From Methanolobus sp. (GTDB lineage Archaea; Halobacteriota; Methanosarcinia; Methanosarcinales; Methanosarcinaceae), in contig NZ_JADQBZ010000008.1 in assembly GCF_016278365.1 (NCBI RefSeq), positions 186,001 through 250,000 of the forward strand: 64,000 nt of DNA, read 5' to 3'. Both the position numbers and the translations under genes were made by a program. The notes beneath the pieces are model-generated. The model saw only the letters and a list, made by a program, of their open reading frames with translations. It did no database searches and was not told where the DNA came from. Shown here piece after piece: positions 35,357 through 41,292 of this stretch (its first letter is position 1; each line of letters opens with the position of its first letter).

Positions 35357-35534
35357 TATCGATTGCTTCAGTGGATAAACACAGCATGTACCAAGATAAT
35401 CCGGTATATACTTCAGTAACAGATAATATGAATTCAAGTTCCAATTGAAATTATAATGGCATTAAAAATCAGCTGGCGAATAAAATAAAACATCGTTCGT
35501 ACAATTAAGAACAGATGGGGTTATATATAGACAA

Positions 35535-35655
35535 GACTTAGTAGATACCGCGAGTGTGGGTCACTCGCCCTATCCAGAAAGAAATATTGGGGAATATTTC
35601 GGATTCGTTAGGAAAGAGGCACCTTAAAGCGTGGTGGTTTCCAGGTGCCTCCTCT
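35535..35655 (-). ncRNA. Structured RNA candidate, copy 2
   Basis: Minus-strand RNA. Hairpin 1: GAGGCACCT (35651-35643), 18-nt loop GGAAACCACCACGCTTTA, AGGTGCCTC (35624-35616). Linker TTTCCTAACGAATCC. Hairpin 2: GAAATATT-CCCC-AATATTTC (35600-35581). Hairpin 3: GCGAGTG/CACTCGC (35568-35550). A TATA-like run at 35680-35661 is about 20 bases before hairpin 1. Compared with copy 1 the loop is identical, while the stems differ by compensatory changes. It is not upstream of a same-strand gene, so a trans-acting RNA is likely. Confidence 0.65.
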
Positions 35656-35729
35656 CACCTTAATATTTAATATATTTGTAGGCTTAAGATTAGCTTTTCA
35701 TATAAAAAGTATCCCTAATGAAATTTCTC

Positions 35730-39018: not shown

Positions 39019-39813
39019 TCAGATTCCCACTATCGATACAGAATCCTTTAAATAATATTCAAAGAGCTCTTTTCCCCAATCAAATTGATCTTTTCTACGA
39101 CATAAAAGATATTTACTCTCGAACTCCCCATTACTTTTTTTTGGACGTATCTTGGTGTAATAATCATTATATGAAAAAGACAGAAAATCCATATTTTTTG
39201 TATAAAGAGAAAACTGAAATAACTTGCTATTTATCAATCTTTCAAAATCTGCATAATTGTCAGTCCTTATTTTGTCAAGTAGATTTTTGGAGACAATAAA
39301 ATGCACGCTCACATTCTTTGCGATCAGTTCTGAGAATAACTCCGGAAATTTAGGGTAAAAGAAAGTAGTAATCCCGCAAAGGGATTTCGACTTTTTGGAG
39401 GCTTCATAGAAGTCATTGTTCATTTCATATATAGCCATCAAAGGAGGGTTAATTACTTTACATTCTCCAAGCTCATTTATCCTGTTAAAGAGATTAGGAG
39501 GGATAAAACTAAAATCATGGGCTCCCCAGTAACCAACATCCTCACCGAAGATGTTAATATATTCCAGGAAGGAGCTAATTTCATTAACAATCAGTTTTCC
39601 AAGAGTAGTCAGATTATAGATATCATGACAATGGTTGATGAGATAGTGCTCTTCCAGTATCCTTACCTGTGGAAGTAATGCCTGTCTGCTGGTATCAAGA
39701 GTTTTGAGAAGGTATTCCATCTCCTGTGGACCATCCTGCAATAGCAAAAGCATTTGCTTTCGTTTCTCTGACATGAATACTACATCAAGCAGCGTTTTTT
39801 TCATTTGTAGCAC
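39019..39813 (-). CDS. Msr-type transcriptional regulator (winged helix + FilR1)
   Basis: 264 residues. MKKTLLDVVFMSEKRKQMLL and LDTSRQALLPQVRILEEHYL mark the winged helix, YWGAHDFSFIPPNLFNRI the FilR1 domain, and FDWGKELFEYYLKDSVS the C-terminus. GTG at 39813 or ATG three codons on may start it; AGAGGAAT lies upstream. It is tandem with the paralog at 39947-40741 (133 bases apart, same strand), as if by duplication. It sits between marR/lon and the RNA candidate copy 1. Confidence 0.87.
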   Translation of the reverse strand: MLQMKKTLLDVVFMSEKRKQMLLLLQDGPQEMEYLLKTLDTSRQALLPQVRILEEHYLINHCHDIYNLTTLGKLIVNEISSFLEYINIFGEDVGYWGAHDFSFIPPNLFNRINELGECKVINPPLMAIYEMNNDFYEASKKSKSLCGITTFFYPKFPELFSELIAKNVSVHFIVSKNLLDKIRTDNYADFERLINSKLFQFSLYTKNMDFLSFSYNDYYTKIRPKKSNGEFESKYLLCRRKDQFDWGKELFEYYLKDSVSIVGI

Positions 39814-39946: not shown

Positions 39947-40741
39947 TTATAGTTCAGTTACTGGTTGAGAGATCTTCAGGTAATGTTGGAAGAGTTCTTT
40001 CCCCCAAACAAGAGATTCGGGACTGGAACAGAGCATATGGTTGATATCAATATGGCCTTCACTTGTCAATAAACGAAGGAGAAGATAATGATCGTTATGA
40101 GCTACAACCTGAATGCCTATCTCTTTTGAGTACACATAGAGGTTGAATGACTTACTATTAAGAAGCCTGTCAAAGACTTCATAGTGATATGTCCGCATTG
40201 TGTCTACCACATTTTTGGTAGTGATAATATACAGCTTTACATCCTTCTGGACCATATCAGTGAATACTGCTGGATAATCCGGGTGAAAAAAAGAAGTTAT
40301 CACATAAAAAGCTTCAGACATAAACGTTGTTCTTACAACTTCCTGGTTAAGCTGGTATGACTCTGTAAGCGTGAGATTTACTTCCTTGCATTTTCCAAGT
40401 TCCCTTAATCTCTCAAAAAGGTGAGGCGGGATGAAATCAAGGTTATGTGTTCCCCAATAATCAGTATCTTCATTGAAAACCTCAAGAGTACCCATTAAAG
40501 GACTCATTTTATCCACAAGCAGTTTTCCAATATGTGTCAATCCATAAACATCGTTTGAGCCGGTGACCAGGCAATGGTCTTCCAATATTCTTACCTGCGG
40601 AAGTAATGCCTGTCGTGTTGCTTTTAATGATCGGAGAATATATTCCATTTCCTTTGGACCATCATGAAGCAGTAAAAGTGTATTCATTATCTTCTCTGAA
40701 GCAAATATAACATCAAGCAGTGGTTTCTTCATAGGTATCAT
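39947..40741 (-). CDS. Msr-type transcriptional regulator (winged helix + FilR1)
   Basis: 264 residues. MKKPLLDVIFASEKIMNTLL, LKATRQALLPQVRILEDHCL, YWGTHNLDFIPPHLFERL and SLVWGKELFQHYLKISQP show the full family architecture. The usual SEKRK motif is SEKIM here, which may alter the wing or dimer contacts. ATG at 40732 (M4) aligns with the family start. It is upstream of its tandem paralog at 39019. Target unknown. Confidence 0.87.
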   Translation of the reverse strand: MIPMKKPLLDVIFASEKIMNTLLLLHDGPKEMEYILRSLKATRQALLPQVRILEDHCLVTGSNDVYGLTHIGKLLVDKMSPLMGTLEVFNEDTDYWGTHNLDFIPPHLFERLRELGKCKEVNLTLTESYQLNQEVVRTTFMSEAFYVITSFFHPDYPAVFTDMVQKDVKLYIITTKNVVDTMRTYHYEVFDRLLNSKSFNLYVYSKEIGIQVVAHNDHYLLLRLLTSEGHIDINHMLCSSPESLVWGKELFQHYLKISQPVTEL

Positions 40742-40944
40742 AATCCCGGGAGGTCCGGCTCACCTTGTCTTTATAAGCCACAAAAGAGTGTCTTTCTCTT
40801 TTCTATTTACGTGCTGATGCTTAAATATTTTATTACTTTAACTTGAAACAACCAGTTTGGTATCCCGGTAAAGGAAATACACATAAAATGAGATAACGTC
40901 ATAGTAATATCTCCCTTAAAAATAAAAACATACCACTTCAAGGT

Positions 40945-41094
40945 AGGTGAGGCGCCTGGAAACCACCACGCTTTAAGGCGCCTCTCTCCTTAACGAATCC
41001 GAGATGTTCCCCAACATCTCTCAACTAACCCACTCTTAAATTGCGGTTCTTTCCCCCACGACCCGCAATACCTATTAGATCACTTTTTTTATTT
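40945..41094 (+). ncRNA. Structured RNA candidate, copy 1
   Basis: Plus-strand RNA. Hairpin 1: GAGGCGCCT (40949-40957), loop GGAAACCACCACGCTTTA (40958-40975), AGGCGCCTC (40976-40984). Linker TCTCCTTAACGAATCC. Hairpin 2: GAGATGTT-CCCC-AACATCTC (41001-41020). Hairpin 3: ATTGCGG/CCGCAAT (41040-41069). A T-run at 41083-41094 ends it. TTAAAAATAAAAACA (40916-40930) is a plausible TATA region about 25 bases before hairpin 1. This gives a self-contained transcript of about 150 nt. The next gene is thiE, 200 bases on, behind its own promoter. Function unknown. Confidence 0.7.
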
Positions 41095-41292
41095 AACCCA
41101 ATCCGATTTTAATATCAGACAGAGTTTTATTTTTTCCAGGAAACTTTTTTTACACACGAGGCTTATTTTGGCAAAAGAGATTAATCATTATTTGCAGAGG
41201 TGTAGGACGTGTTTTAAATAATATTATAACCTTGGAAACAAAAAGCAGGTTTTCATAATACGTCTCTAGCAGACTCAATAAGGAAGAGATCA

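Follow-up and report, generated by a model that had tools for sequence, protein, structure and literature searches.

A multicopy family of structured RNAs associated with FilR1-type regulator genes in Methanolobus

Trans-acting small RNAs (sRNAs) of known function are few in archaea. One described example is sRNA162 of Methanosarcina mazei, which masks the ribosome binding site of the neighbouring regulator gene MM2441 (PMC3510493). Bacteria offer another point of reference in the LhrC RNAs of Listeria monocytogenes, which exist as several near-identical copies with redundant C-rich loop and linker motifs and G-poor unpaired segments (PMC4132741). The RNAs reported here share these LhrC features and also resemble sRNA162/171 (PMC3510493) in several ways. 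They are archaeal and only somewhat shorter (~150-175 nt versus 191 nt), they consist of three stem-loops, the second and third of which are joined by a single-stranded linker, and they occur near an ArsR-type transcription regulator gene and are duplicated with that locus.

The protein neighbours of the new RNAs belong to the PF08350 family, as do the Msr/FilR1-type regulators of methanogens. We know of no structured RNA tied to regulators of this type that has been described in Methanolobus. The reading that we consider best overall, and to which we give modest confidence, is that the RNAs form a new, genus-restricted family of multicopy trans-acting sRNAs that is LhrC-like and associated with FilR1 genes. 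The features of the two copies present in the window, by which we mean the whole stretch of 64,000 nucleotides that was analysed, are collected in Table 1.

Table 1. Positions of the two RNA copies, their parts, and the adjacent regulator genes in the window
Feature	Position	Strand	Evidence or remark
RNA copy A, full three-hairpin unit	40944-41098	+	R1 169 bits, R2 156 bits
Copy A stem 1, 5' arm GAGGCGCCT	40949-40957	+	partner arm 40976-40984
Copy A loop 1, GGAAACCACCACGCTTTA	40958-40975	+	nearly invariant across the family
Copy A stem 1, 3' arm AGGCGCCTC	40976-40984	+	
Copy A linker 1-2, containing conserved AATCC	40985-41000	+	alignment
Copy A hairpin 2, GAGATGTT-CCCC-AACATCTC	41001-41020	+	covariation
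Copy A linker 2-3, C-rich (CCCACTC)	41021-41039	+	alignment
Copy A hairpin 3, ATTGCGG..CCGCAAT	41040-41069	+	folding, covariation
Copy A T-run (probable site of termination), with conserved ATTTAACC after it	41084-41090	+	sequence, alignment
RNA copy B, full three-hairpin unit	35519-35656	-	R1 133 bits, R2 129 bits
Copy B hairpin 1, GAGGCACCT / AGGTGCCTC	35616-35651	-	
Copy B loop 1, same as copy A loop 1	35625-35642	-	
Copy B hairpin 2, GAAATATT-CCCC-AATATTTC	35581-35600	-	
Copy B hairpin 3, GCGAGTG / CACTCGC	35550-35568	-	
Copy B TATA-like box, TTTTTATA	35701-35708	-	~47 nt 5' of unit
FilR1-type regulator gene, divergent from copy A, RNA-associated FilR1 clade	39947-40741	-	PF08350 4e-23; tree
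Second FilR1-type regulator gene	39019-39813	-	PF08350 1.2e-21

Structure, transcription and distribution of the RNA family

A preliminary description of the window had proposed two copies of a three-hairpin RNA with an identical 18-nt loop, and both are indeed present. Each carries CCCC as loop 2 and has a hairpin 3 of differing sequence, and the three compensated pairs between the copies proved correct as well: one in stem 1 (G-C to A-U) and two in stem 2, with no disruptive changes. The count of two was too low, as a search with a covariance model (R1, built from alignment A2 of 12 copies from the same genome) reveals ~17 copies in the Methanolobus genome that contains the window (G000). 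Copies A and B both fold much better than their dinucleotide shuffles (z = -5.3 and -4.4, respectively; none of 200 shuffles equalled either). Furthermore, the exact 18-nt loop occurs nine times in this 2.87-Mb genome and a reversed control pattern does not occur at all, so the recurrence of the loop is not due to chance.

Evidence for a conserved structure comes foremost from an alignment of 141 copies. Standard pairs fill 91.5% of the cells at the 25 named base pairs, a value that falls to 38-52% when the partner is slid by one to three columns. Two-sided compensatory changes are found in 24 of the 25 pairs (360 cells versus 126 in shuffles), and none of 500 shuffles reaches any of the covariation measures. 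As the model itself guided this alignment, the count was repeated for stems 1 and 2 in a structure-blind MAFFT alignment, where 89.1% of cells are paired and 15 of 17 pairs have two-sided changes, versus 43-68% and 7-9 pairs for slid partners. An extended base stem (GGAT/AATCC) was dropped since it displays no covariation by eye. The earlier proposal that these sequences are under selection for RNA structure is therefore strongly supported by family-wide covariation, by the shuffles, and by the structure-blind alignment, and we regard it as nearly certain that they constitute a real structured RNA gene family. A hidden small ORF, sought in each copy as a coding signal, was not found; the longest ORF varies in sequence and has a median length of 22 aa.

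Among 112 distinct copies, loop 1 (ACCACCACGC) is nearly fixed, with most columns 89-97% identical and ACCACC found in 93 copies. Because this loop changes so little over stems that do change, it is presumably read by something. Unpaired segments are 31% C and 12% G, and redundant C-rich motifs recur in the exposed loops and linkers, as they do in LhrC-like sRNAs. One copy in genome G111 (L090:2984-3135) has hairpin 2 swapped for a different, longer hairpin-like sequence (GCTGTACCGTACA...CGTACAGC), and family sequence is retained in its hairpin 1 and 3' end.

TATA-like boxes are found at 67 of 97 copies (27 in shuffles) and cluster ~38-50 nt 5' of the unit. Judging from archaeal promoter spacing, transcription would start ~15-25 nt before the unit; a study of M. 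psychrophilus R15 gives a promoter-to-start distance of 19-22 nt (PMC5378194). The TATA-like region noted earlier before copy A is present but weak, and the clear box instead belongs to copy B. The T-run noted after copy A was found, and in the family alignment conserved ATTTAACC comes after a T-run close to the 3' end. These features strongly suggest that most copies have a TATA promoter of their own, from which an RNA of ~170 nt ending near the T-run is transcribed. Several divergent copies (L101:2962-3112 in G112, L106 in G131, L012 in the source genome, and L157 in G114) have short GAAAAACGG-type repeats just upstream.

The position of copy A, 195 nt 5' of thiE (41293) and on the same strand, could also be read as that of a cis-acting leader or riboswitch controlling the downstream gene. 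However, different copies have different downstream genes, which often lie on the other strand; the unit is also followed by a T-run, and no thiamin or other riboswitch family is matched. It is thus extremely improbable that the RNAs function in this manner.

Further copies in related genomes, the search for which had been suggested as a check, were found with R1 in 12 of the 27 Methanolobus genomes, and their sequences bear out the stems. A broader model (R2) keeps the same 12 genomes, with 3-39 matches each, and its only extras within the genus are weak single matches in three other Methanolobus genomes. Some species carry about 10 to 40 of these RNA genes of ~150 bases per genome. Near-identical multiple copies, as found for LhrC-like sRNAs, are evident both in the source genome (~17) and elsewhere (up to 39). 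In 23 tandem pairs, a short unit (hairpins 1 and 2, ~95-119 nt) lies directly 5' of a full unit.

Beyond Methanolobus, the order was represented by 159 genomes, none of which gives a significant R2 match (best E 0.003, with 186 genomes searched). A possible relative in G105 (L200, 27 bits) was rejected because its score is not significant across 186 genomes, and a FilR1 gene is absent nearby. The preliminary description had left undecided a match to known RNAs; Rfam 15 returned no family for the window at the gathering threshold and otherwise a single chance match (E 7.5). The family is apparently new, multicopy, and restricted to Methanolobus.

Many dispersed copies confined to one genus might also be expected of a dispersed repeat or small MITE-like mobile element whose hairpins are a by-product. 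The inheritance of the copies bears on this point. In three sets of loci (sets 4-6), orthologues are more alike than paralogues (e.g., 0.96-0.99 versus 0.72-0.83). In three other sets (1-3), paralogues match each other as closely as orthologues do, pointing to a degree of gene conversion or to recent duplication, and this partial homogenisation of the most similar copies would be in keeping with a mobile element. Such an element is nonetheless very improbable given the compensatory changes in all three stems, the closer likeness of orthologues in sets 4-6, flanks that differ past the promoter, and the lack of family matches in the plasmid and viral contig collections. Because orthologous positions are kept between species, the copies are best regarded as RNA genes and not as currently mobile repeats, and the pattern of inheritance fits stable genes better than active transposition.

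Association with FilR1-type regulators

Many RNA copies lie beside genes for a single clade of FilR1-type winged-helix proteins, and the RNAs and regulators expand together. A comparison of the flanks of the copies revealed true orthology plus a recurring paralogous gene segment; within the window, this segment falls in two genes that encode the FilR1 middle domain (PF08350). Ten of the 17 copies in the source genome have a FilR1 gene no more than 1.5 kb away (zones this close to one make up 3.4% of the genome), and 12 of 21 copies in G111 have one within 1.7 kb (3.1% of the genome); binomial values for this proximity overstate independence because tandem units are counted separately. Over half of the copies in both G000 and G111 are thus sited beside an ArsR/FilR1-type regulator, as in the sRNA162/171 family, and the ~40-45% of copies that remain have no FilR1 gene within 1.5-1.7 kb.

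The arrangement of the two genes is also recurrent. The linked RNA is most often 3' of the FilR1 gene and on the same strand, and in ~17 cassettes the first RNA unit begins 79-91 nt past the FilR1 stop codon on that strand, with promoter sequence between the two that is common to paralogues and species.

Genomes with at least seven RNA copies have 12-57 FilR1 genes, versus 6-20 in genomes that lack the RNA. Regulator and RNA numbers are correlated (Spearman 0.71), and the two groups of genomes differ (Mann-Whitney p = 3e-4); the p-values are optimistic, the genomes being related. A quick tree places 69 of the 70 RNA-linked FilR1 proteins on the same side, together with few proteins from RNA-less genomes, though the sampling of the latter genomes was weighted towards other FilR1 genes. 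RNA-less species also hold FilR1 genes related to the linked clade, and therefore the clade is expanded in, rather than exclusive to, the species that carry the RNA. The notion of an exclusive clade is weakened accordingly.

Perhaps the FilR1-clade paralogues each sense a different condition and all drive production of nearly the same small RNA. We view this cassette system as a tentative and rather unlikely proposal. If true, many inputs would be summed into one shared RNA pool, with both parts having co-expanded within the genus.

Several additional observations concern the regulator genes themselves. There are ~8 FilR1-type (PF08350) genes in the window (near 8.6k, 13.9k, 17.5k, 21.7k, 39.0k, 39.9k, 57.3k, and 63.1k), and ~35 PF08350 domain matches in the source genome as a whole, an unusually large expansion. 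One locus in G111 (L080:948-4291) alternates three FilR1 genes with three RNA units in 3.4 kb, and another in G146 (L107) has six FilR1 segments and seven RNA matches in 13 kb. Many FilR1 genes have a recurring AGGATGTG-like string right before the start codon that is one base off the usual AGGAGGTG. FilR1 start codons (AAACCACTGCTT) show some similarity to loop 1, but this was dismissed as a chance resemblance, as the codons differ between paralogues.

Possible modes of action

It seems reasonable to speculate that the RNAs are redundant trans-acting regulators comparable to Listeria LhrC. Their exposed C-rich, G-poor segments (ACCACCACGC, TTCCCCAA, CCACTCCC, and CCCCAC) would pair with G-rich segments of mRNAs, and the neighbouring FilR1 paralogues would set when each RNA copy is made. 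That the RNA acts by base pairing through its C-rich loops is plausible by analogy, but we stop short of calling it probable.

Near-complements of loop 1 are not enriched genome-wide (61+60, including the RNA copies themselves, versus 58+69 for the control). Pairing of the loop and other exposed segments with start regions does not exceed that of composition-matched shuffles of the same segments; the true 16S anti-SD tail, used as a positive control, does beat its shuffles (z = -2.3). General anti-SD pairing, a trait of LhrC-like sRNAs, gains no support from this comparison, which shows no preference exceeding that of base composition. Pairing of ACCACC with a site before asnB had also been suggested. 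The sequence GGTGGT does lie just 5' of the asnB start, yet it is a commonplace Shine-Dalgarno-like sequence that would allow only ~6 pairs, and asnB was discarded as a target. The broader suggestion that the loops are interaction sites agrees with a fixed loop 1 over covarying stems.

Because the direct target tests were negative or uninformative, base pairing stays conjectural and titration of a protein must be weighed beside it. The CsrB and RsmZ RNAs bind and sequester the protein CsrA. By analogy, the repeated C-rich loops might sequester an RNA-binding protein, perhaps one that binds C-rich sites in mRNAs. The failure of the complementarity tests is consistent with this idea, as are the fixed loop over covarying stems, the 23 pairs in which the hairpin 1-2 module is duplicated in tandem, and the high copy number. 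However, no partner protein is known, a matching loop in mRNAs was not identified, and archaea to our knowledge lack CsrA. We consider titration unlikely, but still a serious competitor to trans-acting regulation by base pairing.

Another alternative is that each RNA is dedicated to control, in cis or in trans, of the adjacent FilR1-type mRNA, as sRNA162 is with MM2441. The physical association, near-constant spacing, and co-expansion of the two genes would be explained by such an arrangement, which has a precedent in a duplicated regulator-sRNA locus (PMC3510493). However, for four of the five RNA segments, duplexes with FilR1 start regions have unremarkable energies, and only linker 2-3 gives a modestly better mean (n = 19). 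FilR1 mRNAs were set aside as a special target on these grounds, the mean energies otherwise differing little. Moreover, ~40-45% of the copies in two genomes are not beside a FilR1 gene, and a linked RNA is mostly found downstream of the gene in the same orientation. Dedicated control of FilR1 is therefore improbable, and we continue to favour a redundant, trans-acting family.

Relationship to described small RNAs

A dRNA-seq study of M. psychrophilus R15 describes nine sRNAs that are highly conserved, induced by cold in every case, and preceded by a common 'cold box' (Li et al. 2015, PMC5378194). Genome G111, a single contig of 3,072,769 bp, very probably represents this strain. In G111, two Hsp20 genes (0.863 and 2.103 Mb) and the fibrillarin gene (1.893 Mb) match the positions of Mpsy_0869, Mpsy_2176, and Mpsy_1937 of R15 if gene numbers are assumed to be evenly spread; a third Hsp20 gene (Mpsy_0075) was sought in G111 and not detected. 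Nine copies in G111 score at least 149 bits with R1 and the next scores 138, so that nine top-class copies stand beside nine described sRNAs. The upstream sequences of these nine copies are of several types. The family members in M. psychrophilus may include the nine cold-induced sRNAs, a count that fits but is not proof. The main text of PMC5378194 differs from our account in presenting no structure, regulator association, or cross-species family for them. If the RNAs are the same, the family may explain strongly cold-induced sRNAs in a psychrophilic methanogen, a matter that bears on methane production in cold wetlands.

Despite the likenesses to sRNA162/171 described above, published homologues of those RNAs are confined to Methanosarcina and number at most two per genome (PMC3510493), whereas the Methanolobus family reaches 3-39 copies with tandem modules. 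The variable part of sRNA162/171 is the linker, and in the Methanolobus family loop 1 is nearly invariant. Homology between the two, as judged by model search, is not indicated, since R2 has no significant match outside Methanolobus. LhrC differs in being bacterial, with five copies, a UCCC motif, and proven targets (PMC4132741), whereas the Methanolobus RNA is a candidate sRNA with ACCACC and CCCC motifs whose copies associate with a regulator family.

With up to ~39 copies, strong covariation, nearly fixed loops, and co-expanding regulators, the family offers a clear entry point for studying the action and control of archaeal sRNAs. By these comparisons, sRNA162/171 would be its nearest archaeal parallel, and LhrC appears to provide the best analogy for its mechanism.
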